DNA of 22,143 nt. Source: a virus. Below, one piece after another: positions 3,426 to 20,210 of this stretch (positions within the stretch are counted from its first letter, which is position 1; each line of letters starts with the position of its first letter). The stretch spans positions 1-22,143 of IMG/VR virus record IMGVR_UViG_3300044638_003845; one strand, given 5' to 3'. The notes under the pieces were generated by a model. The model searched no databases. It saw only the letters and a list, made by a program, of their open reading frames with translations, and had not been told where the DNA came from. The position numbers and the translations under genes were made by a program.

Positions 3426-3869
3426 TTATTTACCCTTATGCTGCGCCCACAGGTCAGCATCTGTAGTCTTTTGAGTAGGTCCACCCACAATAAAGCTATT
3501 GACACGAGCATATGCCCATTGCTGTTGATTTGCTCCAGGACGATGACCTGTTTTCCATGCAGCCATACCACGATCAAATACTTTTTTAAGAATGCTGTAT
3601 GCTATTCCAGTTTTTTCTGATTTCTTTTGCAATGCTGATAGTTCTGACTCTTCAAGTTCTTCTCCATATTTGTCAGCATATGCTTTTGTCCACTTAGATG
3701 TTTTTGTGTCTGCGTGTGCGTCTCCTGGAGCAGGTTTGTATGCACTTGGATCATCATCACTCATGCGCGTCTGACGATTAAAATGAGCACTCCGTTTGTC
3801 AGATGTGCTTTTAGACAATCCTTTATAATAACCTGAGTTTTCTAGTAAATATTCTTTGAATGATTGCAT
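3426..3869 (-). CDS. Small conserved phage protein with capsid-targeting-like N-terminus
   Basis: A 147-residue protein starting MQSFKEYLLENS, with a possible prohead-protease site L-L-E|N after residue 10. It then shows two blocks I recognise from many phage proteins of unknown function: a KGLSKSTSDKRSAHF segment followed by DPSAYKPAPGDA (about residues 17-52), and a C-terminal block GMAAWKTGHRPGANQQQWAY followed by ARVNSF (about 105-130). The blocks are conserved and positively charged, which suggests nucleic-acid contact, but no activity has been shown that I know of. The start abuts the stop of the upstream gene, indicating translational coupling. Co-packaging in the head is inferred from the first ten residues. 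Confidence 0.7.
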   Translation of the reverse strand: MQSFKEYLLENSGYYKGLSKSTSDKRSAHFNRQTRMSDDDPSAYKPAPGDAHADTKTSKWTKAYADKYGEELEESELSALQKKSEKTGIAYSILKKVFDRGMAAWKTGHRPGANQQQWAYARVNSFIVGGPTQKTTDADLWAQHKGK

Positions 3870-4502: not shown

Positions 4503-5741
4503 TTATCTTTCCCATCCTTTGATTATATTAGGATCAAAATTATTCTTAGAAAATGTCATGCGATCTACAAGTTTGACTACATTTTGTTTTATATGATCAT
4601 TGATAGCAAATCCTTCTTGACTTGAAACTCTAAATCCATCAACTGTACGAACAAACGTTGACATCTTTTTAAGCGTTTCAAGTTTGCGTATTATAATAAG
4701 TTTTGCTTCAACGATAGCGTTTTGCAATGCATAGACAAGTTCTAGGTTTTTCTTGTTCTCATCAGAGAAAAACTTTAAAAACTCATCTCGTTTAGCAGTC
4801 GCACTCGCTTTGCCAGCTTCACTCTTTTTAGATTCAATGTCTTTTGCATACTTGTCATTTATCCATGCAAGAAGATTGCGAACATGAGCAGCGGTATCGG
4901 TTATAGTTTCACCACGACGTACCAGTGTGTTGTTGAATGTTTCAAGAGTCTGTGCGAGCGATTGATCTGATTCAATCTCACGAAGAGTTGAACCACTAAT
5001 CTTTTGAAAGAGCGACCCTGCTTTTGATAGAGTCGCTGTTAACTCTTCGGTTTCTCGTGCAGTTAAGGTAGCTTTACCTGAAAGATCACGTATGTATGTG
5101 TCTGAAAACCACACGCTTGGAGTACGCTTAAGCACGCTTGAGTCAAATCCGTATGAAGCCTTCATGGTCTCAAATGAATTTCCAGTGTACTGAGTATGAA
5201 ACATTACACCAATCTTTGATGCCTTTATAGTTTTTGCGAGAGCACTATCGTTTGGTACTGCATAGACGATAGTATTTGGTTGAAACGTAAGATACTCAAC
5301 TCCATCAAATCTTTCAACCTTTAAATCTTTTTGAGTGTATGCAAGATCTCCTTGAAGCACTCCTTTGATACCCAACTTTTTAAATTCATTATAGGCAACG
5401 GTGAGTTTGTCTGCAAGATCACCACTCGTATCGGCCTTTATATCACTTTCACTCTTATAGACTTTTGGATTTTTATTAAAGATGCCTTTCTTAGCAACGA
5501 AAAATTGTCCATCACTTGGGTCGGTTCCAACAAATATTGCTGGAGCACCGTCAAACTTTGCAGCGACGTCATATGATTGAGGGCTATTGCCAGCCAACAT
5601 GTCTCTCATACTACGAAGTGCGATGATTGCTTCGCGTGCACCCTTTACTCCTCCATATAACACCTGATCCTCAATATGAACCATGTGCAAATTTTTACCT
5701 TCTGTTGAGGCTTCAGTTATGTGTTGTTTAAAGCTTTTCAT
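4503..5741 (-). CDS. Ligase-fold (KxDG) nucleotidyltransferase-like protein with capsid-targeting-like N-terminus
   Basis: A 412-residue protein. It begins MKSFKQHITE|A, a near copy of the T4 capsid-targeting peptide with the I-x-E cleavage site. Residues 61-70 (AKFDGAPAIF) fit motif I K-x-D-G of covalent nucleotidyltransferases (DNA/RNA ligases, capping enzymes), with K62 as candidate AMP acceptor. FFVAKKGIFNKNPKVYK (80-96) and GVLQGDLAYT (127-136) lie where later ligase motifs would fall, and TIVYAVP follows. I recall the family as a phage family of unknown function (DUF6267), so ligase activity is inferred from motifs. The second half (240-412) is helical. The gene follows its upstream neighbour after one base. 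If packaged, the enzyme would enter the cell with the DNA and could seal or modify ends. Confidence 0.65.
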   Translation of the reverse strand: MKSFKQHITEASTEGKNLHMVHIEDQVLYGGVKGAREAIIALRSMRDMLAGNSPQSYDVAAKFDGAPAIFVGTDPSDGQFFVAKKGIFNKNPKVYKSESDIKADTSGDLADKLTVAYNEFKKLGIKGVLQGDLAYTQKDLKVERFDGVEYLTFQPNTIVYAVPNDSALAKTIKASKIGVMFHTQYTGNSFETMKASYGFDSSVLKRTPSVWFSDTYIRDLSGKATLTARETEELTATLSKAGSLFQKISGSTLREIESDQSLAQTLETFNNTLVRRGETITDTAAHVRNLLAWINDKYAKDIESKKSEAGKASATAKRDEFLKFFSDENKKNLELVYALQNAIVEAKLIIIRKLETLKKMSTFVRTVDGFRVSSQEGFAINDHIKQNVVKLVDRMTFSKNNFDPNIIKGWER

Positions 5742-5742
5742 G

Positions 5743-6489
5743 TTAGAATGTTATGATGTCACGATTGCTCGCTGGTTTGTCTGTGACGACTATTCGGCCA
5801 GCACTATCACCTCGTGATGGTGATTTACTGTAGATTTTTGGTGTGCCGTTTGGATATTTCGCGGTTGGATCAAACGTCTGATCTTCGCGGCGACCTCGCA
5901 ATCTAAAATATAGGTCATGACTGTCTGCATACTTTTCGGCTGAAGTAAGTTTTCCATTTACTGTCAAGACTCCGTCATTGAATTTTGACTGTACATTCAT
6001 AGGACCAATATACATATAATCGATTGGACCTCCCATGGCTAAATTTCCAACTACAAGCAGTTTTTTATCGGCGTCGTTTAGAACGCCATAAGTATCTGGA
6101 ACTTTTTGACCAGCTTTTAATTTATTTTTAAGGTGTTTTTTATACGCAGCAGCATAGAATCTATAGCCGATTCCAGGTATAATCTCTTCGATACCTCGTA
6201 ATCCTCCGCCAGCAAGTGAAGGAGCGCTCTCGCCCTTCATAGAAATGTTTACAAATGTTCCGTTCTTTAAAAATAACTGAACGTCAGTATACGGCTCTGA
6301 TCCACTTGATTGGCGACCAGAATATTTTTCTGCATTGACCACGTTTTTTATATAAGAGTCGTCACTTTTAACAGTTATCGATTGCCCACCATTCTTTTTA
6401 ACTGCATATTTTACTGCTTTAACAAAGGATGATTCTTGACGCTCAGCTGATATACCAGCTTCTGTAATATATTCTTTAAAGCTTTTCAT
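5743..6489 (-). CDS. Putative nuclease-like protein with capsid-targeting-like N-terminus
   Basis: A 248-residue protein starting MKSFKEYITE|A, the best match in the window to the T4 capsid-targeting peptide (same length, same I-T-E|A cut). Residues 67-85 (YTDVQLFLKNGTFVNISMKG, start of block) read as a beta-hairpin with D69 and K85 in the spacing of a PD-(D/E)xK nuclease core, followed by SAPSLAGGGLRGIEEIIPG. I recognise the latter from phage proteins of unknown function. The usual acidic residue before the Lys is Ser (S-M-K), so catalysis is uncertain. GNLAMGGPIDYMYIGPMNVQ (148-167) is another conserved-looking block. The gene is spaced one base from both neighbours, so it belongs to one transcription unit with the ligase-like gene. 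Confidence 0.55.
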   Translation of the reverse strand: MKSFKEYITEAGISAERQESSFVKAVKYAVKKNGGQSITVKSDDSYIKNVVNAEKYSGRQSSGSEPYTDVQLFLKNGTFVNISMKGESAPSLAGGGLRGIEEIIPGIGYRFYAAAYKKHLKNKLKAGQKVPDTYGVLNDADKKLLVVGNLAMGGPIDYMYIGPMNVQSKFNDGVLTVNGKLTSAEKYADSHDLYFRLRGRREDQTFDPTAKYPNGTPKIYSKSPSRGDSAGRIVVTDKPASNRDIITF

Positions 6490-8893: not shown

Positions 8894-10426
8894 TTATGCG
8901 TAGGACTCGATCATACGAGCAAGGTCGCCATCAGAAACTTCAACGCCTGCAGCAAGTGCTCCTGCAGCCATATTCAAGCCACGAGAGAGTTTACGAAGGT
9001 TAGCACTCTGTTTGCTTTTGCCTTTACGAAGCAGATCAACAACGTGTAAGCGAGCTTTCTGATCAAGATTTAAACCGTCTTCAAGCTTCATCTCTCCTAC
9101 AATCTTTTCCATAAAGTCATAGATTTCAGTTTCTGTAGGGTCGATGTTGATAATAAATGCACGAGTACGAAGAGCGCCGTCTGGATCAAGCTTATTAAGA
9201 TCGAGGTTTGAGATAAAGATAATCTTTCCAGTAAATTCGAAATAGCGTGGAATCAATCCTTGATCGATAATTTCATCGTCGCTCATGTCGTCTTCAGGAT
9301 CGACAACGTTTTTACCCATCTTGTTCCAAACGAGCTTGCGAATCTTTTTGGTATCGGTAGCAGCCTTTAACAGGTTGCGTGCTTCTTGATCACCAAGTGC
9401 GTCGTCGCTGTCATCAAAGAAAACAATATCATTTTTATAACGAAACAGCAATGAATAGAGACCAGCTGCGCTTGCAGAACCAGTATTCTTGAAATAGCCG
9501 TTTCCATCACTCAGTCCCATGCTTGAAAGAATCTTTTCAGTAGTGTGTGTTTTACCAACACCACCTTTACCAGAAACGAATAGCGCATTCGCTGCGCCAC
9601 TTACAGTAAGCTTAACAAGATTTTCAAGATCTTTTAGTTGTGCTTCAAAGGACAAACGATCTTGATTTTTTTCAAGTTCTTCTACTTCAGGAGAATAACT
9701 GTATTTTTCTTTGGCTGCTCCCTTTGAAACTGTACCAGACACGATTCCGATGCGAGCCATAATCTTTCCCTTTTCAGCTTTGATCTGCTTTAGGTCTTTT
9801 GCCTTGCCAACCCAGACATACTTGATGCCTTGCTTTTCAATATAGTTTGGATATGCCGCTGAAAGAGCGTCAAAGATTTTAACACCTGGAACACCAAACA
9901 TGCTGTAAATTTTGCTCTTTACAAAATTTGGATCGACGAGATAGTCAGCAATCTCATCAAAGATGGCTTCAAAGTCATGATTGCCACGAGCTTCATTCAA
10001 CACTCCTTCATAGAGTGGCACTTCGTCAGGCATGCTGTAAATCTTGCCAAGTTCGGCAGTTCCAGCGCTTAAGATGTCTGCGATAATAGGCAAAGTCTTT
10101 ACAAGTGATACATCCTGATCAAATTCAATATGAAAAGGAACTGGATTTTTACCGTTCCAATAATCTATCGAAGTAAGATTATTAAGCCCTACAAGTGAGC
10201 TTTGTGTCCAGTTAAAACGTACACTCATATTGCGCTTTGCCGAGTAAAGACGTAATCCAAAACCAATACCGTTAGAGTTTGTATATTTTTCTAAACCAGG
10301 ATATCTGAAAAACGTTGTGCCAGTTTTCTTCTTGAGATAGCGTTGAATGATGAATGCTGCTTTTTCTACAGATGATGTAGAGAGTGCCTCTGTTAGGTAA
10401 CGTTTAAATTCGGTTAGTCGTGACAT
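8894..10426 (-). CDS. AAA ATPase with capsid-targeting-like N-terminus
   Basis: A 510-residue P-loop ATPase. Walker A is GKGGVGKT at 286-293 and Walker B is DIVFFDD at 333-339. ISNLDLN in the later FTGKIIFISNLDLNKLD block fits sensor 1, and GALRTRAF would place arginine-finger residues. A separate N-terminal domain (about 20-140) has no motif I know. The protein begins MSRLTEFKRYLTE|A, a possible capsid-targeting peptide with cut site L-T-E|A, and has a second site VLNE|A at 145 that would remove the N-terminal domain. I recall similar ATPases of unknown function in marine T4-like phages. The gene is the first of the late module, preceded by two TATAAATA boxes and separated from the helicase by 40 bases. 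Whether it acts in DNA metabolism, assembly or ejection is unknown. Confidence 0.75.
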   Translation of the reverse strand: MSRLTEFKRYLTEALSTSSVEKAAFIIQRYLKKKTGTTFFRYPGLEKYTNSNGIGFGLRLYSAKRNMSVRFNWTQSSLVGLNNLTSIDYWNGKNPVPFHIEFDQDVSLVKTLPIIADILSAGTAELGKIYSMPDEVPLYEGVLNEARGNHDFEAIFDEIADYLVDPNFVKSKIYSMFGVPGVKIFDALSAAYPNYIEKQGIKYVWVGKAKDLKQIKAEKGKIMARIGIVSGTVSKGAAKEKYSYSPEVEELEKNQDRLSFEAQLKDLENLVKLTVSGAANALFVSGKGGVGKTHTTEKILSSMGLSDGNGYFKNTGSASAAGLYSLLFRYKNDIVFFDDSDDALGDQEARNLLKAATDTKKIRKLVWNKMGKNVVDPEDDMSDDEIIDQGLIPRYFEFTGKIIFISNLDLNKLDPDGALRTRAFIINIDPTETEIYDFMEKIVGEMKLEDGLNLDQKARLHVVDLLRKGKSKQSANLRKLSRGLNMAAGALAAGVEVSDGDLARMIESYA

Positions 10427-10466: not shown

Positions 10467-11855
10467 TTACACGTTTATGCTACTATAGTCTCTATTTTTT
10501 CGTTGACTATTAAATGGAGTGCTTACTACTGGAGAACTATCACCATCATTGGTAATATTTGCCATAGGATCTGAAATATCATATAGTCTCATCTTTGAAA
10601 GATCAATTCCGATAGTAAATCGTTTGTTGCTTGTTGGATCATTATAGCGATTCTTAAGCTGCTTGACCATAATTTGATTCATCTTATCAAGTTGTTCGGT
10701 GCGAATAAACGCAAGCATCAAGTCGGCCGTGGCAGGTAGTCCAAAACTTTCGCTGGTATCTGTAATTTCTACATCTGAATTATTAAATCCTCCGCGAGTG
10801 ACCTGAGTGGCACTCCATATTGGTACATTAAACTCAACTGCTAAACCGCGAAGTTCTTCAGCAATACTCTTGATTAGACTGTATGTGTTAACGCTTCCAC
10901 CAAGCCCCTTCATTCGACTGCTAGCACAGATATTTAGATAGTCAACATAGATAATGTCTGGCTCAAATTTTTTCTTGAGTTTTAATTCTAGCAACAGCGC
11001 TCTAAAGTGACCAACGTGAGCAGCTGCGGTTGGATATTCCTTTACGATAAGTTTTCCATGAGTTCGCTGACTTATAGATGATACCTTAGAGCGAAACTCA
11101 TTTTGTGATAGATCTTTAAGCTTATCGATTCGTATATCAAGCAGATTTGCATCGATACGTTCTGCGATACGTTCCTCAGCCATCTCAAGAGTAATATACA
11201 AGACATTTCGGCCTTGAGCAAGAGCCGCACTTGCCATATGACACATACCAAGACTTTTTCCACATCCTGTACCAGCAAGAATAATGTTTAGTGTTTTTCT
11301 TGGAATTCCACCACCAGTAATTGTATTAAACATATCCAAGTCGAATGGAATCTTATCTTCAGTCTTGTGATAAAACTCATAGCGACCGTCTACGTTTTCA
11401 AGATAATCATGCCCAACGTTTGTATCAAATGTTACACTTAGTGCTTTGCTAAGTATGCTTGGAATAGCACCTTCAGCTTTATCTTTTACCTTGCCATCTA
11501 TGATAGAAATTGATTCTATGATTGCAAGATGCACTGCACGATCTTTACACCATTTTTCAGTACTATCAAGCAGCCATTCACTTTCTACGACTATTGGACT
11601 TGCAAGTGATTGAATATGAGTCAGAGCATCGGTTGCATTCGGATGACGAATCTGTTCAGAATTTTGAAATTCGATTGCAAGCGCTGTTGAGTTTGGCAGC
11701 TTATTATATTTTGTAATAAACTTTAAGATGCAATCATAGACTAGACGAGACGCTCCTTCAAAATATTCTGGTTTTAAATGTGGTAATGCTTTACGACAAA
11801 ATGATTCTTGATGTATTAAATTATTAATTATAGTGCTTTCGAGACTGCTATCCAT
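10467..11855 (-). CDS. 41: Replicative DNA helicase, DnaB/T4 gp41 family
   Basis: A 462-residue RecA-fold hexameric helicase, close to the usual size of T4 gp41. An N-terminal helical domain (1-140) precedes the ATPase core: GGGIPRKTLNIILAGTGCGK (181-200) followed by S201 contains Walker A GTGCGKS. The block IIYVDYLNICASSRMKGLGG contains Walker B, and WSATQVTRGGFNNSDVEITD holds the conserved Gln and switch region of DnaB-type enzymes. It unwinds the fork ahead of the phage polymerase, moving on the lagging strand and recruiting primase. It overlaps the small upstream gene by eight bases and lies in the same unit as uvsX, as in T4 (uvsX-40-41). The C-terminal tail is Ser/Asn-rich and probably disordered. 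Confidence 0.95.
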   Translation of the reverse strand: MDSSLESTIINNLIHQESFCRKALPHLKPEYFEGASRLVYDCILKFITKYNKLPNSTALAIEFQNSEQIRHPNATDALTHIQSLASPIVVESEWLLDSTEKWCKDRAVHLAIIESISIIDGKVKDKAEGAIPSILSKALSVTFDTNVGHDYLENVDGRYEFYHKTEDKIPFDLDMFNTITGGGIPRKTLNIILAGTGCGKSLGMCHMASAALAQGRNVLYITLEMAEERIAERIDANLLDIRIDKLKDLSQNEFRSKVSSISQRTHGKLIVKEYPTAAAHVGHFRALLLELKLKKKFEPDIIYVDYLNICASSRMKGLGGSVNTYSLIKSIAEELRGLAVEFNVPIWSATQVTRGGFNNSDVEITDTSESFGLPATADLMLAFIRTEQLDKMNQIMVKQLKNRYNDPTSNKRFTIGIDLSKMRLYDISDPMANITNDGDSSPVVSTPFNSQRKNRDYSSINV

Positions 11856-12147
11856 GATTTCCTATTTTAAAGTCTTGATTTGAGAGTATATCGTTTAAGA
11901 CGTCACCAATATGGTTTTTAAATACGTCATCCGTATCTAGATCTATCTTATCTAGATTTTTTGGTATGTAAATAATTTTATACGCAAAAGATAATTTACA
12001 TACTCCATTATTTTCATCTTCATTTAATCGAATACTTCCATATTTGTAGATTAGATTAGAATATTGACCACTAGTTAGTTTAATTGCATAAACTTTATCG
12101 TTCGATGGATCGTCTACGAATATATAATCAGTTATTTCGCTTGGCAT
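11848..12147 (-). CDS. Small conserved protein in the position of T4 gene 40
   Basis: A 99-residue protein with a beta-rich N-terminal part (SEITDYIFVDDPSNDKVYAI) and a C-terminal acidic helix around DVFKNHIGDVLNDILSNQ (about 73-90). The pattern of strand-forming SFAYKII followed by an acidic helix with GD-x-L resembles small proteins that sit just before gp41 in many T4-like phages. In T4 this slot holds gene 40, the head-vertex assembly chaperone. The assignment rests on position and size, not on a firm motif. The last eight bases overlap the helicase start, so the two are translationally coupled. Confidence 0.65.
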   Translation of the reverse strand: MPSEITDYIFVDDPSNDKVYAIKLTSGQYSNLIYKYGSIRLNEDENNGVCKLSFAYKIIYIPKNLDKIDLDTDDVFKNHIGDVLNDILSNQDFKIGNHG

Positions 12148-12152
12148 AATTT

Positions 12153-12752
12153 TTAGTCACATGTGTTTCCATAGTGTTCAGGCAGCCAAACATACGAAGA
12201 AACTACATATTTTGAGTTGGATACTGGAGTTGCACCCTTATGAGGATACATAAAATATGGAGGGAAACATAGTACGTTGCCAGCTTCTGGTTTTATCGCA
12301 ATTTCTGTTCCGATATCAAACAACGTTTCTCCGCCTTCAGCAACATCGTTGAGATACCAAAACATTACGATTGCTCGTTTACTAGAAGGAATATCACAAT
12401 GATCAGTATGCCAATCAAAGATTCCAGTTCCTGGTTCATAACGCTTTATTCGTGGAGCTTCAAAATCTTTTAGCGGTTCATAGCATGGCAGTCTGTCTTT
12501 TAGAATGTTGCATGTTTTTTCAAGATAATGATTGTTTACTGCCCTCATGAGCTGCATCATTGGCACTCTAAATTCAGAGAACGCATCATGATCAAGCATG
12601 TTGATTTCACCAAAATCAAATATTTTATTTTTACGCTGTAGCTTTAATGGATCTGAAGCACCGATAGAATCATAGGTGTCTATAAGTGCTTGACACATAT
12701 CAAGCGGCATCGCTCCCTTGAGCAGCATTATATAGTCTGCAAGAGTTTTCAT
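12153..12752 (-). CDS. 2-oxoglutarate/Fe(II)-dependent dioxygenase (prolyl hydroxylase-like)
   Basis: A 199-residue protein of the double-stranded beta-helix dioxygenase superfamily. DWHTDHCD (113-120) gives H115 and D117, and HKGATPV gives H171: together the HxD...H iron triad. K181 in NSKYVVSSYVW fills the place of the basic residue that binds the 2-oxoglutarate carboxylate. GGETLF (140-145) is the signature turn of the prolyl 4-hydroxylase branch. Marine T4-like phages often carry such enzymes and their substrates are mostly unproven. Its place between uvsX and the helicase, close to the base-modification genes, makes a nucleic-acid substrate possible, although P4H-type protein hydroxylation is the default. 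The start overlaps the end of uvsX by four bases. Confidence 0.88.
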   Translation of the reverse strand: MKTLADYIMLLKGAMPLDMCQALIDTYDSIGASDPLKLQRKNKIFDFGEINMLDHDAFSEFRVPMMQLMRAVNNHYLEKTCNILKDRLPCYEPLKDFEAPRIKRYEPGTGIFDWHTDHCDIPSSKRAIVMFWYLNDVAEGGETLFDIGTEIAIKPEAGNVLCFPPYFMYPHKGATPVSNSKYVVSSYVWLPEHYGNTCD

Positions 12753-13810
12753 TCTTCTTCAAATGTAACTTCGTCCTGAGAATCATCGATCATGTCTCGT
12801 AGACCGATCGTATATTTCTTCTTGATATAAGAAGCAAAATCAGTTTTGGTAAAGATTGTTTCCCAAAAATCTTTCGTAAGAGTCTGAGCTGCACGAAGAT
12901 TTGCAGTAAGTTCAGTCTTTGTTGCTGGATCATATGCAACATACCAACCATTCTTTGGTTTTACTACATAGCCACCATCTACTGCAATATCAAGAAGACC
13001 ACTCCATTTTTGAATGCCGCCTTCCCAACTTACGCTAATCGGAATCTTACTCTTTTCTTTTACGAATCTAGATTTTTCAACGTTGATAACAAAATGATAG
13101 CCTTGAATCTCTGTGCCTTCTTTGTCTTGCTGACGCCCCAAAATCCAGATGTTGTCGGCAGAATAGGTGATGCCTGTTCCACCGCTAACGACAGCTTTAC
13201 TAAACATCTCTTGAGTTTGATATGTATGGTTAATTGCGAGAAGCGGAATATTCTTAAGAGTAAGATATGGAGTCACCATACGAAACAGACCCTTTAGACT
13301 TTTTGCTCGAGTCATGTCAGCGACACTCTTTTCATTCATCGCATCTTCAAGTTCTTTCTTGGATGCAAGGTTTCCTACCGAATCCACGACGATGATAACT
13401 TTGTCTTTGCGATCTAGTTCTTCAAGCTGATTTACGATATCAAACTTGAGTTCTTCGATATTTTTGATTGGAATATGAAGCACTCGATTTGTGTCAATAC
13501 CAAAACTTTCAAAATATGCTTGCGGACTTCCAAACTCGCTGTCATAAAACATCAAGCACGCATCGCTATGCTTCTTAAGATACGCGCTTGCCATAAGCAA
13601 CGCAAAACTTGTTTTAAAGTGTTTACTTGGACCTGCGAGTACGGTAAGACCGCTTGTAAGTCCTCCATCGATGCTGCCGCTCAGCGCAACGTTAATCATT
13701 GGAACGCTTGTACTCGTAACATCTTTATCAGAATAGAACGCACTCTCTGCAAGTACTTCAGCTTCTTTGATACGACAATTCTTTTTTAGTTTTTCTAATA
13801 CTGATGACAT
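12749..13810 (-). CDS. uvsX: RecA-like recombination protein UvsX
   Basis: A 353-residue strand-exchange ATPase. Walker A is GPSKHFKTS at 60-68, a form typical of UvsX rather than RecA (which has GPESSGKT). Walker B lies in KVIIVVDSVGNLASKKELED (about 136-155), and the L1/L2 region follows with NEKSVADMTRAKSLKGLFRM. GGTGITYSADNIWILGRQQD is the conserved strand before the core end. The acidic tail SQDEVTFEEE matches the tail seen in UvsX. It drives recombination-dependent replication and repair, normally with UvsY and gp32, neither of which is in the window. A sigma70-like promoter precedes it, so uvsX, the dioxygenase, the small gene and gp41 probably form one early/middle operon. Confidence 0.95.
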   Translation of the reverse strand: MSSVLEKLKKNCRIKEAEVLAESAFYSDKDVTSTSVPMINVALSGSIDGGLTSGLTVLAGPSKHFKTSFALLMASAYLKKHSDACLMFYDSEFGSPQAYFESFGIDTNRVLHIPIKNIEELKFDIVNQLEELDRKDKVIIVVDSVGNLASKKELEDAMNEKSVADMTRAKSLKGLFRMVTPYLTLKNIPLLAINHTYQTQEMFSKAVVSGGTGITYSADNIWILGRQQDKEGTEIQGYHFVINVEKSRFVKEKSKIPISVSWEGGIQKWSGLLDIAVDGGYVVKPKNGWYVAYDPATKTELTANLRAAQTLTKDFWETIFTKTDFASYIKKKYTIGLRDMIDDSQDEVTFEEE

Positions 13811-13861: not shown

Positions 13862-14914
13862 TTATAAAAAGAATGAATCTAAACTATTATTCTGATTCAA
13901 ATCTTTTTCGATGCCTGTCCAATGCGGATAAAATTCTCTAGACAAATGAACTGATTGTGGTTTTTCCATCTTTGCAAAGTCTAGCTCTCCAAGACTGTTT
14001 GCTAGATAGTCTGTCCATCGAATAAGCTTTGCTCTAGTCGCTATTCGTTCAGCTTCATCTGCAAATATCTGTCGACACTCGTTGCGTTGTTGCCAAGACC
14101 CATAGAATGGCTGACCTTTATAGTAGCCAGTTTTTGGCAACTTTCGAGATGGATTTTCAATCAAAAGCGGTTCATATATAGAGACGTCATCGATAGGCAA
14201 CGATTCTACCGCTTCGACATATCGTTTTACAAGATCCTTAGTATTTTGAATATAGTCTGGAGATATTCTGCAAAGATGATGTCTGATATCGATGTTGCCA
14301 AAATAGCACTCAAGCGCTTCAACTTGATTTAGATCTTTATGGGGAATAGTATCTCTGATTCCATCGTTGATCACTCCGTTTAATGTTTTAAACGGGATAG
14401 AATTTACAGTCCAACCTGGACGATACATACAAATCGAATGAGAATCTCCAATCACAACCTTGCTTGTTATGTGTGGAAACTTTAAGGTTGGAGCGTGTAT
14501 ATACATACGCTTAAGATTTTCAAGGTCGACTTCGAGCCATTCTTGTTGAATAGGTTTTTTGGCTTGCGTCGCCTTAGAGATTCGTTCAGACAGCATTTCA
14601 TGATATGCTGGAAAATCACATGCCAACGAAATGACACGACCTTTAAATTGAGAAAATGCTTTTACGTTTTTGACGTTTGAATATTTTTCGAGGCCTCCAA
14701 AAAGATTTAACGTACCAAACCAATCGTTTCCATGATAAACGTATAGTGTATCATATTGATTATAGTCGTCGACCTTTCCACCAAAATTAATGTCAAGATC
14801 AACTCCAGATTGTCGAATCATATCGGCATAAATTACACCCTGTGATGAACGATGAGACGATGGTCTATCGCTAATTGAATTAAATGGGCAGCTTAACAGT
14901 GCTTTCATCGACAT
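13862..14914 (-). CDS. GDSHS-motif (SGNH-like) protein of the hypermodification cassette
   Basis: A 350-residue protein. Residues 153-160 (VVIGDSHS) resemble the GDS nucleophile block of SGNH/GDSL hydrolases, with S158 as candidate nucleophile, and YRPGW follows. The C-terminal third holds LPKTGYYKGQPFYGSWQQRN followed by ECRQIF, and later LIRWTDYL and EKPQSVHLSREFY. I recognise this set from phage proteins of unknown function that travel with DNA-hypermodification genes. A catalytic His/Asp pair near the C-terminus, needed for a true SGNH hydrolase, cannot be fixed by eye. The gene lies between the transferase-like gene and uvsX with a 29-base gap upstream. An alternative start two codons in (MKALLSCP) is equally plausible. 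Role in trimming, transferring or activating the modifying group is inference. Confidence 0.55.
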   Translation of the reverse strand: MSMKALLSCPFNSISDRPSSHRSSQGVIYADMIRQSGVDLDINFGGKVDDYNQYDTLYVYHGNDWFGTLNLFGGLEKYSNVKNVKAFSQFKGRVISLACDFPAYHEMLSERISKATQAKKPIQQEWLEVDLENLKRMYIHAPTLKFPHITSKVVIGDSHSICMYRPGWTVNSIPFKTLNGVINDGIRDTIPHKDLNQVEALECYFGNIDIRHHLCRISPDYIQNTKDLVKRYVEAVESLPIDDVSIYEPLLIENPSRKLPKTGYYKGQPFYGSWQQRNECRQIFADEAERIATRAKLIRWTDYLANSLGELDFAKMEKPQSVHLSREFYPHWTGIEKDLNQNNSLDSFFL

Positions 14915-14943
14915 ACTATACTCTAAATTTATATCTTTGTAAA

Positions 14944-16014
14944 CTATTTTTTCTTACAATTTTCAAAATGCCGATAACCCTTTCCATCTAAGATAACTTT
15001 ACCTTCAGGATGTTTAGCTAAGCTAAAATTATTTGGAAAAATCCAATTATATGGAATACGTTTTGTAGGCGATTTAACGTTATGATTGATAGCTATATGT
15101 TTGTAAAATAGGCACGATTTATCTTCTATGTTTAGCATTTTTTGAGCAGTCATCGGGTTGCGAGAGTCTTCACATAATATCTTCATCTGCTCGAGCCAGA
15201 GTTTGCACATATCGTTTTCTGCAACAAATTGACCGTCACCATCTATAGAATATTGTGCTTTGCCGTTTATATTTTTGCCTCCGAAAATTTGATGCAAACC
15301 ATCAAAATGACCGGTTCCTCCATATAGCACACTCTCTGGATCCACTAGATCTGGAAACGACATAGCAAGATAGCGCGCGGCATTCTTGCATGGATAGAGC
15401 GGAGAACGAAAGCCTTGATGCTGCTTAAAATATGCTTCCATCAACTTAGCAAATTCCATCATCGTATACGGACGCTTAAGATTTTCAAGATGATGAGACA
15501 TCGCTGTTGCTGCTTTCAACGGTCCAGTTAACAGCCAATCTTTTACGTTTGTATTGAGTGGATAGTATATCTGAAACAAGTCGTTTCTAGCATGACGATT
15601 TCTAGAAAAATGATCGCGCGTCGATTCGATACCGTTTTCAATCAGATGTGTCAATGTTCCCCAATGTTCGTTCGTAAATGAAAAGACGAGTGTATACCAT
15701 AGAATATCTTTTAGATCTGTCATGCCTCGCATCAAATCACAAAACGGATGTTCATGCCAATGCAAGCGGTGAGAAAAGATTTGATAGTCTTCGGCCAGCA
15801 GCTTGTCTTCTCGTTTATCAAATGCATGACAAAATTCAAAAAACTTTTCAAGCCTCTGATCTAATGTCCAGTTTCTCATCCAACTGTCTATCGGCTTTTT
15901 ACCATTTTTTAGCGGAACGCTATGGTCAGTGTCTTCGTAGATAATGTTGTTATATTTTACACCATCCTCGATAAAATCTTCAAGAGTATTTTTGTTGCTA
16001 ATCATTTTTCCCAA
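14944..16014 (-). CDS. Putative DNA-base hypermodification protein, aGPT-pyrophosphorylase-like fold (copy A)
   Basis: A 356-residue, mostly helical protein. Its order of blocks fits the alpha-glutamyl/putrescinyl-thymine pyrophosphorylase-like (HhH glycosylase-fold; amino acid:DNA transferase) superfamily. A helix LWYTLVFSFTNEHWGTLTHL comes first, then CKNAARYLAMSFPDLVDPES, the Gly loop VLYGGTGHFDGLHQIFG, and finally MLNIEDKSCLFYKHI, which lies where the family has its E-D-x-x-C-x-x-x-K/R-Y motif. Enzymes of this class replace an activated 5-hydroxymethyl group on pyrimidine bases in DNA with an amine or amino acid. Assignment is by pattern, not alignment. It overlaps the PLP-enzyme gene by 13 bases, so both are made together. 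The start used here is the first in-frame ATG; the fourth codon is another ATG. Confidence 0.55.
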   Translation of the reverse strand: MGKMISNKNTLEDFIEDGVKYNNIIYEDTDHSVPLKNGKKPIDSWMRNWTLDQRLEKFFEFCHAFDKREDKLLAEDYQIFSHRLHWHEHPFCDLMRGMTDLKDILWYTLVFSFTNEHWGTLTHLIENGIESTRDHFSRNRHARNDLFQIYYPLNTNVKDWLLTGPLKAATAMSHHLENLKRPYTMMEFAKLMEAYFKQHQGFRSPLYPCKNAARYLAMSFPDLVDPESVLYGGTGHFDGLHQIFGGKNINGKAQYSIDGDGQFVAENDMCKLWLEQMKILCEDSRNPMTAQKMLNIEDKSCLFYKHIAINHNVKSPTKRIPYNWIFPNNFSLAKHPEGKVILDGKGYRHFENCKKK

Positions 16015-16874
16015 TCTCGATATGAATCTGTGTTGTCTATAATTGATTTATCATGAAGAATTGGATCGGTTCCAACATTCCACATTAAAATTCTACGACC
16101 AGTATTTTTTGGAATATATTTCCATACCTTTGCATCGTAGGTATTTACTGTAGGAAATGGAGGTAGATTTTCAGTCTTTTCGCTTTGAGGAAAATCTAAC
16201 GGTTCTGAAATTACGTGTGCTCGACCCAACTCTCCTGCCTTTAAGTTTCTAGCTACAGCGATACATGTAAACTTTGCATTAGGCCAAGCGATTTGAAGAG
16301 CTCGAGCTAAAACACCAGTTGATATGGCTACGTAAACTTCTTCTGGTTCTTCTATTGTTGAGGCAGCATGTACTATAGCCGCAGTAGCTAATTCGTGTTT
16401 AAGACCCAACGGAATAAAGTATGCTCCATTTTCTGATGCCCAACGTTTAGCATAGAGATTCAAGTTTGGCATCGCAGCGATTCTCTTAAAGTATGCTTGA
16501 GCTCCGCGTTCGATGCAACACGCTTGATGAACAGAAATTTTCTTTGAAGATGGCATAAAGAGTACGATCTTTTTACCAACATGGCGTTGCGCGACATCAC
16601 ACAAAGAGACTCCTGCTAGTCCTACACGAGGCTGACAATACACGAGTGTGTCTGAATCAATCTTGGATATAAGCAAATCTCCAGCTCGTGTCTTTGTGCC
16701 AACGATTAGATCATCTCGAACAACAAGCACTCCCTCATGCTCGACTACAACTGGATCAGGATTGTATGGAGTCCAACCTTCACACAACGAAAGATAGTAT
16801 TGCTTTGCTTCATGTGGTGACATGAGCCCAATGTCTTTGTTGTAACCGTCTATGATATGTGTATTGTGTGACAT
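16002..16874 (-). CDS. Fold-type II PLP-dependent enzyme of the hypermodification cassette
   Basis: A 290-residue protein. VVRDDLIVGTKTRAGDLLIS (51-70) matches the cofactor-binding start of tryptophan-synthase-beta/ACC-deaminase-like PLP enzymes, with K61 as candidate Schiff-base Lys. KKIVLFMPSSKKISVHQACC then ERGAQ (about 105-130) is the familiar strand-helix that normally handles the substrate carboxylate. STGVLARALQIAWPNAKFTC (about 186-205) replaces the usual Gly-rich phosphate loop. At 290 residues it is somewhat shorter than cellular relatives, and the C-terminal domain is reduced. Phage base-hypermodification loci often include a PLP enzyme that makes or reshapes the amino-acid group on the base. 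It overlaps one transferase-like gene and is one base from the other, which supports joint action. The precise reaction is unknown. Confidence 0.65.
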   Translation of the reverse strand: MSHNTHIIDGYNKDIGLMSPHEAKQYYLSLCEGWTPYNPDPVVVEHEGVLVVRDDLIVGTKTRAGDLLISKIDSDTLVYCQPRVGLAGVSLCDVAQRHVGKKIVLFMPSSKKISVHQACCIERGAQAYFKRIAAMPNLNLYAKRWASENGAYFIPLGLKHELATAAIVHAASTIEEPEEVYVAISTGVLARALQIAWPNAKFTCIAVARNLKAGELGRAHVISEPLDFPQSEKTENLPPFPTVNTYDAKVWKYIPKNTGRRILMWNVGTDPILHDKSIIDNTDSYRDWEK

Positions 16875-16875
16875 A

Positions 16876-18036
16876 TCAAAGTGATTCTACTAGTTTTTTA
16901 TACTGCTCTGCTGTCAAACCGTTTTCTTTAAGTATCTTGTCTCCTGTTGGATGAAAAGACAATTCATTGAAACTTTTAACCAATCCAAGTTCTAGCATCG
17001 CGCGCTGACGTCCAAACGGATGAACCAACTTGCTAGAATTCCAAATCTCATCCAAATCTAGATGACCATACGCATCTCCAGGCTTTACATAATTTTCAAG
17101 ATATCGAATAAAGTCACAACATACATCTTCGACGTTATACGGATAGCCACCAGTATCGTTATAAAGGCTTATCATAATTTCATCGACAAGCTGATCAGCC
17201 TTCATCTTTGTCTTTGACTTGGCGAGATATGAAATACTTTGAATAGCATTGCTGCCATAGTAGAACAGTGACTCTTTGTTTACAAACTCTGGAAACCAGT
17301 CAGCGATGTCTGCAACTATAGCAGCATACTGAAAATGATATTGACGCAGACCGTTGTCTACGTTCCACTTTAACATATACGAACCAATTTCCCGTAAATC
17401 TTTCTTGCCTCCTGCAGTTAAAAAATCTGCTAGATCTCTTGCAAGTTTTGGAGCATACTCACAAAGATAATAGTCACCGCCTCTTTTGTAAGAGGTATTT
17501 TCTGGTTTTGGAAATGCTGGAAACTGATAACCTACCGAAGTATAGAATGAATTTTTCTCATAGCGAACGATATCAGTCATCTTCTCAATGCTGTCTGCAC
17601 GATACAACTTGAAAAGCAGTGTATTATGATAGCCACTCGGTTTTAACGCATAGTTGATAGCAGAACCACATACTCGATGCAAGATAAAAACATATAGCCA
17701 TTCAGCTAAACCGAATGTGTCTTGCTTTCCTGTCCAGCTATTAGCTACTTCTACTCGTTGAGCAGAAGCTTTACCAGCTTTCATTTTTTGCCAATAAGGA
17801 TGACTCGATGTCCATCCATGAAAGCAGTCTTGAACGATTTGAGAAAATCCTGCATAGGCACGCTCTACTACATCATAGAGTTCAACCTTTTCCATTAGAT
17901 CATCACCGATATTGCTATCAATGTGATTGATCATGCCATATGGCGCAGTTAGACTTACATTACATTTTTCTTGCTGCTCCTTAGCAAGAGCATAGTAGCG
18001 TAGAAATTCTTCGTAGTATTCTGTTTTTTCTATCAT
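16876..18036 (-). CDS. Putative DNA-base hypermodification protein, aGPT-pyrophosphorylase-like fold (copy B)
   Basis: A 386-residue helical protein related in layout to the gene at 14944-16014. LAEWLYVFILHRVCGSAINY (about 129-148) is the first core helix pair. QYHFQYAAIVADIADWFPEF followed by VNKESLFYYGSNAIQSIS resembles the family's AY-x-IV-x-DL ... GPGA-x-x-GI segment. PYNVEDVCCDFIRYLENYVK is a clear match in type to the E-D-x-x-C-(D/E)-x-x-(K/R)-Y motif. By family knowledge such proteins act on modified pyrimidines in DNA. The Gly-rich loop is degenerate (YYGSNA), so one copy may be regulatory or have a different substrate. The gene follows the Nmad1-like gene after two bases and precedes the PLP gene by one. 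Confidence 0.6.
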   Translation of the reverse strand: MIEKTEYYEEFLRYYALAKEQQEKCNVSLTAPYGMINHIDSNIGDDLMEKVELYDVVERAYAGFSQIVQDCFHGWTSSHPYWQKMKAGKASAQRVEVANSWTGKQDTFGLAEWLYVFILHRVCGSAINYALKPSGYHNTLLFKLYRADSIEKMTDIVRYEKNSFYTSVGYQFPAFPKPENTSYKRGGDYYLCEYAPKLARDLADFLTAGGKKDLREIGSYMLKWNVDNGLRQYHFQYAAIVADIADWFPEFVNKESLFYYGSNAIQSISYLAKSKTKMKADQLVDEIMISLYNDTGGYPYNVEDVCCDFIRYLENYVKPGDAYGHLDLDEIWNSSKLVHPFGRQRAMLELGLVKSFNELSFHPTGDKILKENGLTAEQYKKLVESL

Positions 18037-18038
18037 TG

Positions 18039-18383
18039 TTAATCGTTTTTAGGACGATTTAAAAAATCACGACCTTCAATCTGACCGTCCATGCCGTTGC
18101 GACAATAAGAAACGATAAACGAACAGTAGTTGATCATATCTTTTGCAGAGTCTTCAATGCTTTCAAAGTTTTGAACATAAGTTGCATCATTTTCCATAGC
18201 AGCTACTACACTTCGCAGACGAAGCATCTTGGCATGAACGATATCAAGCAGAGTAGCTACACCGCGAGGATAATAGTCAGCCTGTCGTATAATGCTGTTT
18301 GGATTTTGATAGTCGTTGCCCTTTTTGAGTTGTAATTCTGCACACTCTTGAAGTACACGAATTGATTCACGTTCTGCTTTCAT
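18039..18383 (-). CDS. DUF1599/Nmad1-like protein
   Basis: A 114-residue protein starting MKAERESIRVL. KKGNDYQNPNSIIRQADYYP, then RGVATLLDIVHAKMLRLRSV, then NFESIEDSAKDMINYCSFIV give the pattern K-x-x-DY ... L-x-x-K-x-x-R-(L/I) ... ES-x-x-D-x-x-x-D-x-x-NY. This matches the small phage family DUF1599, also named nucleotide-modification-associated domain 1, a MazG-like all-helical fold proposed to work on nucleotides. A longer frame opens at 18461, but its first 26 residues lie on top of the conserved 41-residue gene; the ATG at 18383 leaves a seven-base gap and is preferred. It heads the cassette of base-modification genes, which agrees with a role in nucleotide-pool handling or modification. 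Confidence 0.6.
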   Translation of the reverse strand: MKAERESIRVLQECAELQLKKGNDYQNPNSIIRQADYYPRGVATLLDIVHAKMLRLRSVVAAMENDATYVQNFESIEDSAKDMINYCSFIVSYCRNGMDGQIEGRDFLNRPKND

Positions 18384-18390
18384 AATTTTA

Positions 18391-18516
18391 TTAGCCTTGA
18401 CCGCGAGAAAGTTTCTTATAGTTTTTAGACTGCTTAAGATGAGAAGTTTTGCTTTTGGCATGAATGCCTTTACGCTTAATTTTCTTTTGTTGTACTTTGA
18501 TTCCAGTGTGTTTCAT
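18391..18516 (-). CDS. Conserved 41-residue basic protein
   Basis: A short frame from ATG at 18516 to TAA at 18391 encodes 41 residues starting MKHTGIKVQQKKIKRKGIHA and ending SKNYKKLSRGQG. I recognise the RKG-(V/I)-H-(A/S)-K-x-K-T-S ... K-x-S-K-N-Y-x-K-x-x-RGQG pattern from small proteins conserved in T4-like phages, which argues strongly that it is real despite its size. About a third of the residues are Lys, Arg or His, so RNA or DNA binding is likely. It is preceded by a sigma70-like promoter (18524-18551) only seven bases from the ATG, and is followed after seven bases by the Nmad1-like gene. Function unknown. Confidence 0.8.
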   Translation of the reverse strand: MKHTGIKVQQKKIKRKGIHAKSKTSHLKQSKNYKKLSRGQG

Positions 18517-18523
18517 ATGTGTT

Positions 18524-18551
18524 ATTATATATTAGATTTAAATTTTGTAAA
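18524..18551 (-). promoter_or_regulatory. Sigma70-like promoter before the base-modification cassette
   Basis: On the minus strand TTTACA (18551-18546), a 16-base spacer, then a perfect TATAAT (18529-18524), seven bases before the ATG at 18516. The message would begin at or close to the start codon. It is placed to drive the 41-residue gene and the modification cassette downstream. Confidence 0.55.
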
Positions 18552-18553
18552 CA

Positions 18554-19108
18554 TTAAAGATTATATTCTTGAATATATTTTTCGGAAATACATTCTTTTT
18601 TATTTAGGCCATGACGAGACATACGAGATAGTGGAACTCTTTTCCTGCAAAAAATACAGTAACATGTGCCTTGTCTATAGGGGGCAGGTCTTCCAGTAAG
18701 TGTTTCAGATATTTTCTTCTTATGCTCGTCACTATGTCTTTTGCCTTTTAATGTGGTAGATATTTTTTTGTTGCGTTCTAAGTTTGCTCCAAATTTCATT
18801 CCTTTTGTTGGGCTTGTTCTTCCTTTAAGTTTCTTACTGATTTCAGAGTAATCAGTTGAAGAAACTCTTTTTTCAATATGTTCCGGTGATTGTTTATAAC
18901 CGTCAACATCTCTTCCACAATCCCAGTATTTTTTTAAAGAGTTGTATGCCATAGCATCTTCAGCGAGACCGTATTTTAGCCACAATTCATAATGAGCCTG
19001 ACTATGTTCACTTGGAGTTAGATATTCAATATTATCGTCATCATCGGATCCTCCCTGATGCTTCGGTATTATATGATGACGATGGTATCCTTTTTTGCGT
19101 GGTTTCAT
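18554..19108 (-). CDS. HNH homing endonuclease with NUMOD3 repeats and zinc finger
   Basis: A 184-residue free-standing homing endonuclease. Residues 8-40 form an HNH core: HRHHIIPKHQGGSDDDDNIE then YLTPSEHSQAHY, with the H-H pair at 11-12, N26 and the later His residues as metal/catalytic set. Two NUMOD3-type DNA-binding repeats follow (GRTSPTKGMKFG and KGKRHSDEHKKKISETLTGR). The C-terminus GTCYCIFCRKRVPLSRMSRH followed by GLNKKEC has two C-x-x-C or C-H pairs typical of a small zinc finger. Such enzymes cut phage genomes lacking the gene and spread by repair. It sits between gene 42 and the small basic gene with its own late promoter box, as many T4 homing endonucleases do, and so is probably a recent insertion. 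Confidence 0.9.
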   Translation of the reverse strand: MKPRKKGYHRHHIIPKHQGGSDDDDNIEYLTPSEHSQAHYELWLKYGLAEDAMAYNSLKKYWDCGRDVDGYKQSPEHIEKRVSSTDYSEISKKLKGRTSPTKGMKFGANLERNKKISTTLKGKRHSDEHKKKISETLTGRPAPYRQGTCYCIFCRKRVPLSRMSRHGLNKKECISEKYIQEYNL

Positions 19109-19114
19109 ATACTT

Positions 19115-19122
19115 TATTTATA
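19115..19122 (-). promoter_or_regulatory. T4-type late promoter before the HNH endonuclease
   Basis: An exact TATAAATA on the minus strand, six bases before the ATG at 19108, inside an otherwise early/middle gene block. Confidence 0.55.
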
Positions 19123-19153
19123 TAAGAAACCTACCAATTTTACATAATTTTTA

Positions 19154-19846
19154 TTATTCGTTAAGTGATGCAATATATTTCTCTATTAAGTAAAAATGTC
19201 GACTATACACATGCAGGCTGCCAACTTGCCAAGTGATTTTTCCAGCAGTTATCTTATCTGCCTTTTTAATTCCGCAATTATAGTCATAGACAAGTTTGTC
19301 TTGAACATACTTTTGCCACGCATAGTCATTTCGATATCCGTATACCACATCGTTGCTCCGCATCTGTACAACAACTTCAAGCATGCCATCACGAATAAGA
19401 TATTGAACTGCATTCGTGCAGATAAAGTCACTCATTCCATTCACACACCAATTGCTGTGCATAGACGGTCGAGTATAGATCGCGACTGCTCGACGACTGT
19501 TTGGTGAGCGAGTCAACTCCATAAGCACATTTTCATACTGACAATAGTTTTCTGAACTAAACATCAGATAGCCATAGTTGGAATTGATTTTACCATCACT
19601 GCTAGAGACGTCTTGCCAAATTTTAGGAACTGTTCCTGGTATATCAGCAACATACAAACTCATTGACAGATACCAATCTAGTTCGCGCTGAATATAGTCA
19701 TCGTTAATTTCACCAAAGATACTCGGTTCATCTGCACAAAAACTTGCACCAACAAGTTCAAGCGTCGATGCACCAGTTTTGTCAGTGATAAATTTTTTAG
19801 TTTTGTATTGATCTACAAAATGTTGTCGTATTTGACCTATTGTCAT
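19154..19846 (-). CDS. 42: Deoxycytidylate (dCMP) 5-hydroxymethylase, T4 gp42 family
   Basis: A 230-residue member of the thymidylate-synthase superfamily, close in size to T4 gp42. It turns dCMP and methylene-tetrahydrofolate into 5-hydroxymethyl-dCMP. Numbering from the ATG at 19846: C143 in MSDFICTNAVQYLIRDG is the catalytic Cys, followed by the MRSNDVVYGYRNDYAW block. D174, 31 residues after the Cys, stands where thymidylate synthases have the Asn that reads dUMP; Asp there marks dCMP use, as in T4 (C148/D179). GSLHVYSRHFYL is the conserved nucleotide-binding end. The frame extends ten codons upstream (19876), but 19846 leaves one base after the upstream stop and aligns with the family start. 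The phage is therefore expected to carry modified cytosine. Confidence 0.95.
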   Translation of the reverse strand: MTIGQIRQHFVDQYKTKKFITDKTGASTLELVGASFCADEPSIFGEINDDYIQRELDWYLSMSLYVADIPGTVPKIWQDVSSSDGKINSNYGYLMFSSENYCQYENVLMELTRSPNSRRAVAIYTRPSMHSNWCVNGMSDFICTNAVQYLIRDGMLEVVVQMRSNDVVYGYRNDYAWQKYVQDKLVYDYNCGIKKADKITAGKITWQVGSLHVYSRHFYLIEKYIASLNE

Positions 19847-19847
19847 A

Positions 19848-20210
19848 TTAACCAAAGATAGTTTTACGGCATGCAACGATTAGACTTAAATGATAGTTGT
19901 CCTGCTCTTCGAGGCAACTATTATGCTCGGCAAGCTCATCATAGTTTTCAGACAACTCGCACTCTATAATCTTATTGACTTGAAGTGGTCGATCATTCGT
20001 GATATAAAGATAGACGTCAGAGATGCCATCTTTAATTGAGTGACCATTCTCAATGGAAGACCATGAGATGTTGTTGAAACAATCTTGACGTTCGACAAAA
20101 TCAACTACCTTTGAAAATAGTTGATCTCGTAAAACATCAGTAGAGTGAGAATTTTTATTCGCACAAAACATTGAATATATGCGTTCAATTATGGTATGTG
20201 TGTCAGTCAT
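19848..20210 (-). CDS. Hypothetical protein upstream of gene 42
   Basis: A 120-residue protein starting MTDTHTIIERIYSMF. The frame is open 23 codons further upstream (20279), but that extension runs through a terminator hairpin and reads as non-coding, so the ATG at 20210 is chosen. There is a Cys/His-containing N-terminal helix, an acidic middle (NKIIECELSENYDELAEHNS) and a hydrophobic end (YHLSLIVACRKTIFG). No family recognised. The acidic, Asn-rich composition and position directly before the hydroxymethylase suggest a small early or middle phage gene. A TATAAATC box lies five bases upstream. Confidence 0.6.
   Translation of the reverse strand: MTDTHTIIERIYSMFCANKNSHSTDVLRDQLFSKVVDFVERQDCFNNISWSSIENGHSIKDGISDVYLYITNDRPLQVNKIIECELSENYDELAEHNSCLEEQDNYHLSLIVACRKTIFG

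Follow-up and report, generated by a model that had tools for sequence, protein, structure and literature searches.

A putative 5-hydroxymethylcytosine hypermodification cassette in the β-glucosyltransferase slot of a T4-like virus

Genes between gene 42 and uvsX

The window, that is the whole stretch of DNA analyzed here, is a 22-kb virus record (IMGVR_UViG_3300044638_003845, 22,143 nucleotides) that carries a cassette of uncommon genes between gene 42 and the recombinase gene uvsX. From gp42 to gp41 all genes lie on the minus strand, in the order gp42, HNH endonuclease, Nmad1, hel1, pyridoxal phosphate (PLP) enzyme, hel2, GDSHS, uvsX, 2-oxoglutarate (2OG)-Fe(II) oxygenase, a 99-aa protein and gp41. 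The corresponding order in T4 is 42, b-gt, segA, uvsX, 40, 41. An earlier note on this DNA had placed five genes in the slot of the T4 β-glucosyltransferase (BGT), and the open reading frames (ORFs) of Nmad1 (18039..18461), hel1 (16876..18036), the PLP enzyme (16002..16874), hel2 (14944..16014) and GDSHS (13862..14914) are indeed found there on the same strand. The Nmad1/hel1/PLP/hel2 junctions are either gaps of 1-2 bp or overlaps, a tight spacing compatible with a single operon. Over 100 distinct viral contigs contain the cassette, and its ORFs are far from chance because relatives of hel1 occur in more than 565 viral contigs and those of hel2 in 227.

Gene 42 (19154..19876) encodes a dCMP (deoxycytidine monophosphate) hydroxymethylase of 240 aa with 60% identity to T4 gp42 (E 1e-103). 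Residue D179 of the T4 enzyme corresponds to position 177 of E. coli thymidylate synthase, at which Asp is associated with modified cytosine and Asn with dUMP (deoxyuridine monophosphate; PMC8670742). The window enzyme has Asp here (motif YRND), and so does each of the 91 gp42 homologs from the contigs examined; M6-type dUMP hydroxymethylases have another motif and no Asp at the equivalent position. The Asp points to cytosine rather than dUMP as the substrate, and gp42 very probably makes 5-hydroxymethyl-dCMP that enters DNA as 5-hydroxymethylcytosine (5hmC). Two large relatives with the cassette away from gp42 encode their own Asp-type second enzyme (L265, L266).

The AlphaFold2 model of GDSHS (predicted local distance difference test score, pLDDT, 91) displays two domains, of which residues ~1-145 resemble T4 BGT and residues ~150-330 resemble SGNH hydrolases. 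Against the PDB, the model matched SGNH hydrolases (2hsj, platelet-activating factor acetylhydrolase) with E 1e-5 and probability 1.00 and, in a separate match, T4 BGT (1j39, 1qkj, 1nzd) with E 4e-4 to 2e-3 and probability 0.94-0.98. Using hhalign, residues 30-100 of the GDSHS family aligned to residues 27-100 of T4 BGT (E 6e-5), while PF09198 matched 20 of the 46 family members, all below cut-off, and a PDB sequence search with the GDSHS profile gave no credible match. The likeness to BGT is weak but reproducible and lies in the N-terminal third. The alignment ends at BGT D100, which we take to be the catalytic base of that enzyme. The C-terminal UDP-glucose-binding GT-B domain of BGT was not recognized in GDSHS, where that part instead matches SGNH hydrolases. 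Fold, GDS(L) serine, G-N block and C-terminal His all place this second domain among the SGNH proteins; S158, H159, G206, N207 and H323 are invariant in 46/46 members, forming the blocks GDSH and GNIDxRHH plus H323. As modeled, GDSHS is a BGT-like N-terminal domain joined to an SGNH-like domain. That it might be an unrelated insert in the BGT slot is ruled out by the BGT-like domain.

The annotated start of hel2 is a TTG at 16014, although an ATG at 16005 is the likelier start. The AlphaFold model built from 33 relatives (pLDDT 84) was compared with BFVD viral models using Foldseek, yielding amino acid:DNA transferase (ADDT), aGPT-Pplase1 and HMUDK_hel proteins with probabilities of 0.96-1.00, among them proteins from Ralstonia phage phiRSL1, Microbacterium phage Lucky3 and Delftia phage PhiW-14. 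Below this top group came one ADDT at 0.87 and all others at 0.15 or less. The top match, labeled 'ADDT domain-containing', is a hel2 relative (54% identical) whose label Pfam does not reproduce, and it was discarded as not independent. By sequence, hel2 found nothing credible in Pfam (all members) or PDB profiles and had no tblastn match in 50,697 phage records. The model supports an ADDT/aGPT-pyrophosphorylase fold for hel2, from which we infer that the protein may transfer amino acids onto DNA.

The 386-aa hel1 is predicted to be helical. Its relatives are well conserved (69% mean identity per column across a sample of 46 sequences). Sequence searches of Pfam (all members), PHROG and PDB gave no credible match, and tblastn against the same 50,697 phage records found none. 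The hel1 motif N-x-E-D-x-x-C-D-F, in its looser form N-x-E-D-x-x-C-x-F, resembles D-I-E-x-x-L-C-E-F of HMUDK_hel and N-x-E-D-K-x-C-x-F of hel2. Smith-Waterman alignment of the hel1 and HMUDK consensus sequences reached z ~4 (20/4000 shuffles) but misaligned the known motifs, and we do not use it as proof; the same comparison between hel1 and hel2 gave no signal.

The PLP enzyme (290 aa) falls into phrog_7093 (E 4e-38), the same PHROG as gp52 of M6, which belongs to the M6 thymidine-hypermodification cluster. Its family profile aligns with cysteine synthase (3rr2, E 1.5e-5) such that the K61 region lies on the catalytic lysine, and the Schiff-base Lys61 is invariant in the family. Judged from these alignments, the protein is a fold-type II PLP enzyme. 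Members of the family also occur within or beside ParB/DNA-methylase genes in Erythrobacter phage R6L and Microcystis phage Mae-JY30 (L004, L005), which represents a different modification context. The Nmad1 label given earlier is right at the family level, as DUF1599 (PF07659) matches 14 of 18 family members (best E 5e-8), with the window protein alone at 0.0022, below cut-off.

Core pair and exchanged modules in relatives

After grouping and de-duplication, four viral scans yielded 155 loci, and 40 distinct groups span gp42 to uvsX. Cassette proteins served as bait for these loci, so that the frequencies are no census; the exclusivity is independent of the baiting. Across the 40 spans GDSHS is accompanied either by hel1 (16, all 16 of the distinct type-A spans) or by an HMUDK-like protein (24), never by both and never by neither. 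The locus has GDSHS as its constant core, and one helical protein goes with it every time. The HMUDK-like partner is above the Pfam HMUDK_hel cut-off in two contigs, where it lies directly upstream of GDSHS, and its family aligns with the HMUDK family of M6 gp55 (E 1e-7 over 251 columns), which by sequence makes it a real HMUDK_hel member. A GDSHS locus type lacking a helical protein was considered and ruled out by the presence of this protein there.

The modules around the core differ with the partner. Inositol-3-phosphate synthase (INO1; best structure 1gr0, E 4e-48) is found with the HMUDK-like protein in 41/42 groups and with hel1 in 0, and the HMUDK-like protein also travels with a HAD-like protein. 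These relatives hold inositol-phosphate synthase, HAD-like protein and HMUDK_hel in place of hel1, PLP enzyme and hel2. In hel1 groups PLP enzyme and hel2 are common, not universal. Such swapping suggests a kit of exchangeable parts for the protection of viral DNA.

Among cultured viruses, 43 phage records contain GDSHS (38 Aeromonas, 3 Tenacibaculum and 2 Stenotrophomonas). ORF233c of Aeromonas phage 44RR is a single 795-aa protein in which the first ~335 aa are GDSHS and the remainder is HMUDK_hel-like (PF18723 E 9e-4; stand-alone HMUDK-like family E 3e-47), and Aeromonas phage 31 has the same fusion. This fusion and the strict alternation of partners are good evidence that GDSHS and its helical partner act together. 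Phages 25 and IME13 instead have UDP-galactopyranose mutase and a 358-aa protein (phrog_14998) beside GDSHS. Petrov et al. 2010 (PMC2993671) noted gene 42, alc and denB but no glucosyltransferase in phages 44RR, 31 and 25, and raised the question of a different 5hmC modification in such phages. We found an Asp-type gp42 dCMP hydroxymethylase encoded in 44RR and 25 (L251, L252), and GDSHS in all three phages. As in the window, the protein, annotated as 'hypothetical' (ORF233c/ORF225c), thus occurs in gene-42-positive T4 relatives without known glucosyltransferases (PMC2993671); unlike in the window, it lies near motA and not gene 42, either fused (44RR/31) or beside UDP-galactopyranose mutase (25). 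GDSHS is a candidate enzyme for these cultured phages, so the question of 2010 is answerable on existing stocks.

Directly upstream of the 44RR fusion, ORF234c (L002:4408-5931) encodes an SGLT-like sodium/sugar symporter (E 3e-103 to 2xq2), which may take up the donor used in the modification. In large-phage loci of the L023-L080 type (contigs of 126-256 kb, e.g. L048, L049, L052) the order GDSHS-hel1-hel2-PLP is found away from gp42, with DUF6378 and ribonucleotide reductase genes alongside. A C5-cytosine DNA methyltransferase-like gene (PF00145 E 2e-17) directly follows GDSHS in 75 loci (L140:9961-11160). A gene of the uracil-DNA glycosylase (UDG) superfamily adjoins hel1 in 41 loci (L110:3539-3955), and the M6 cluster has a similar gp48. 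The isolated Microbacterium phage Neferthena (L248) encodes HMUDK_hel, P-loop kinase, TET-associated glycosyltransferase and an Asp-type thymidylate-synthase homolog, which makes it another candidate for cytosine-based HMUDK chemistry.

A proposed route to hypermodified cytosine

The thymidine pathway of M6 and ViI consists of dUMP hydroxymethylase, P-loop kinase with HMUDK_hel, ADDT and PLP enzyme; what we say of the mechanism of aGPT-Pplase proteins and thymidine hypermodification is background, drawn in part from PMC6449724. The window shares with it a thymidylate-synthase-fold hydroxymethylpyrimidine synthase, an ADDT-fold protein and a PLP enzyme that falls into the same PHROG, and many relatives share the UDG-like neighbor. 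It differs in starting from dCMP and not dUMP, in having GDSHS and no P-loop kinase, and in that PF18723 and PF18724 do not recognize hel1 and hel2. We consider it probable, at roughly 60%, that the locus is a modular 5hmC-hypermodification cassette, the cytosine counterpart of the M6/ViI pathway, with the following steps. First, gp42 would provide 5-hydroxymethyl-dCMP and so 5hmC in DNA. GDSHS and its helical partner, here hel1, would then act on 5hmC in DNA, GDSHS giving a BGT-like domain to bind the acceptor DNA and an SGNH-type catalytic domain. This pair would hold the place of the P-loop kinase and HMUDK_hel of thymidine-hypermodifying phages, with GDSHS taking that of the kinase by analogy, in line with the lack of a Walker A motif in the cassette proteins between gp42 and uvsX. 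In a third step the activated hydroxymethyl carbon would receive an amino-acid-derived group through hel2, and in a fourth the PLP enzyme would supply or trim this group. Nmad1 would adjust nucleotide pools, and the resulting modification would protect the DNA against nucleases. Relatives with inositol-phosphate synthase, HAD-like protein and HMUDK_hel would run a sugar or cyclitol version on the same core.

The ADDT fold of hel2 together with the M6-family PLP enzyme makes an amino-acid-type group reasonable, and such a decoration is our best guess for the window; for INO1-type relatives the best guess is a sugar or cyclitol on the base. The earlier note had read the locus as a replacement of sugar decoration by another chemistry, perhaps an amino-acid-type group. 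A hypermodification cassette and the amino acid agree with our data, but plain replacement of sugar is too simple a picture, because GDSHS has a T4-BGT-like domain and relatives' loci hold sugar or cyclitol genes. To our knowledge, no cytosine carrying an amino acid or inositol through its hydroxymethyl group has been described in nature.

Several results weigh against the proposed pathway. In thymidine-type phages, Walker A is present in 9/11 checked genes adjoining or fused to HMUDK_hel, but we found none in the cassette proteins between gp42 and uvsX and hence no candidate 5-hmdU DNA kinase, which leaves the activation step of the known pathway without an obvious enzyme. The resemblance to BGT is limited to one GDSHS domain, in which the residue aligned to D100 is Asp in only 33/46 members. 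The Asp of the SGNH DxxH motif is Gln, Lys or His in GDSHS, so that hydrolase chemistry is not assured. Neither hhalign nor the PF18724 and PF18723 profiles related hel2 significantly to the ADDT and HMUDK families, and 14 cassette-bearing genomes gave no PF18724 match. Profile-profile comparison of hel1 with the HMUDK and ADDT families was likewise not significant. The two helical proteins had both been called aGPT-like before: for 14944-16014 (hel2) the model and Foldseek uphold the fold while profile searches returned no significant match, and 16876-18036 (hel1) is not placed in that family by profile or consensus alignment. Finally, no thymidylate-synthase-fold gene was found in the large and possibly incomplete relatives G001, G004 and G006.

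The alternative that survives best, itself unlikely, is that GDSHS acts as a divergent DNA glycosyl- or cyclitol-transferase and the base still bears a sugar-like group, on which hel1, hel2 and the PLP enzyme make or attach a second, minor decoration. A BGT-like N-terminal domain in the b-gt slot fits this, as do the supply genes of relatives, i.e. inositol-3-phosphate synthase, UDP-galactopyranose mutase (25, IME13) and the SGLT-like symporter (44RR). However, the C-terminal domain of GDSHS is SGNH-like and not the UDP-sugar-binding domain of BGT, the window cassette has no sugar-nucleotide gene, and the separate phrog_14998 protein of IME13 and 25 could be the sugar transferase there.

Less probable again is an acylation route, in which the SGNH serine of GDSHS would acylate the hydroxymethyl group of 5hmC, acyloxymethylcytosine then serving hel2 as leaving group or being itself the end product. 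Such chemistry is compatible with the invariant GDSH and GNIDxRHH blocks and His323, SGNH folds include acyltransferases (3skv is among the Foldseek matches of GDSHS), and GDSHS or its fusion is found where the kinase is absent. Yet the third triad residue is not kept as Asp, no acyl donor gene was seen, and the argument is one of homology alone. We regard it as improbable that hel1 and hel2 belong to another pathway (repair or defense) as DNA-glycosylase-like or DNA-binding proteins, in a merely syntenic cluster at a gp42-uvsX hotspot, since, despite their lack of sequence matches to ADDT/HMUDK, the differing gene content of this interval in T4 and the window and the UDG-like gene adjoining hel1, the Foldseek matches of hel2 are specifically ADDT/aGPT-Pplase/HMUDK_hel, hel1 and a bona fide HMUDK_hel protein, the latter itself fused to GDSHS in 44RR, replace each other without exception, and the GDSHS-hel1-hel2-PLP unit also occurs away from gp42 in other large phages.

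The modular 5hmC-hypermodification cassette can also be set beside cytosine systems. It shares the gp42-uvsX slot, the 5hmC substrate and a BGT-like N-terminal domain with the 42-b-gt module of T4, and differs by an SGNH-like domain instead of the UDP-glucose domain and by four extra genes in the window. RB69 is another T4 relative in which a different group replaces glucose on 5hmC (arabinosyl-5hmC), but it uses a glycosyltransferase and arabinose supply, not ADDT/PLP/GDSHS (PMC6024577). 5-carbamoyloxymethylcytosine (PMC8670742) and the carboxymethylcytosine-glycine amide made with CmoX/CmoY (PMC12783734) are phage cytosine hypermodifications too, and CmoY also attaches glycine; the enzymes involved, a carbamoyltransferase in one case and a C5-carboxymethyltransferase with an AMP-forming ligase in the other, are not found in the window.

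The pathway would extend amino-acid/HMUDK-type hypermodification from thymidine to cytosine, with modular swapping around one core protein, and if true would widen the known range of DNA bases and DNA-modifying enzymes. A broader and rather tentative reading is a second 5hmC-finishing system in gene-42 T4-like phages, in which a BGT/SGNH and helical aGPT-type core replaces the kinase and exchangeable donor modules give differing final bases. The donors might then be an amino acid via PLP/hel2, inositol via INO1 and possibly galactofuranose or imported sugar (Aeromonas).

Flanking genes

The right-hand boundary of the cassette is uvsX (12749..13810, 52% identity to T4 UvsX), followed on the same strand by a small gene of 99 aa in the gp40 slot (11848..12147, phrog_3998) and the gp41 primase-helicase (10467..11855, 39% identity to T4 gp41, E 4e-108). 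The earlier statement that 42, uvsX, a small gene and 41 keep the T4 order holds, although the small protein has no similarity to T4 gp40 detectable by BLAST or profile.

Two genes add to those listed before. An HNH/NUMOD3 homing endonuclease gene (18554..19108; PF01844 E 7e-6, PF07460 E 2e-5, phrog_655) sits between gp42 and Nmad1 and, being seen in only 4 examined loci, was not counted as a pathway member. The matching T4 interval holds segA, which is unrelated. Between uvsX and the gp40 slot lies the 2OG-Fe(II) oxygenase gene (12153..12752; PF13640 E 2e-9, phrog_61), which has a counterpart in only 2 examined loci; its product may be an extra tailoring enzyme or unrelated.

Elsewhere in the window, the minus-strand products of 284-916, 1886-2794, 3426-3869, 4503-5741, 5743-6489 and 8894-10426 have similar N-terminal peptides (MKSLNEILNE, MIKSFKTYLEE, MQSFKEYLLEN, MKSFKQHITEA, MKSFKEYITEA and LTEFKRYLTEA). 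These resemble the T4-type capsid-targeting sequences cleaved by the head protease, and the proteins are possibly an internal head protein set.

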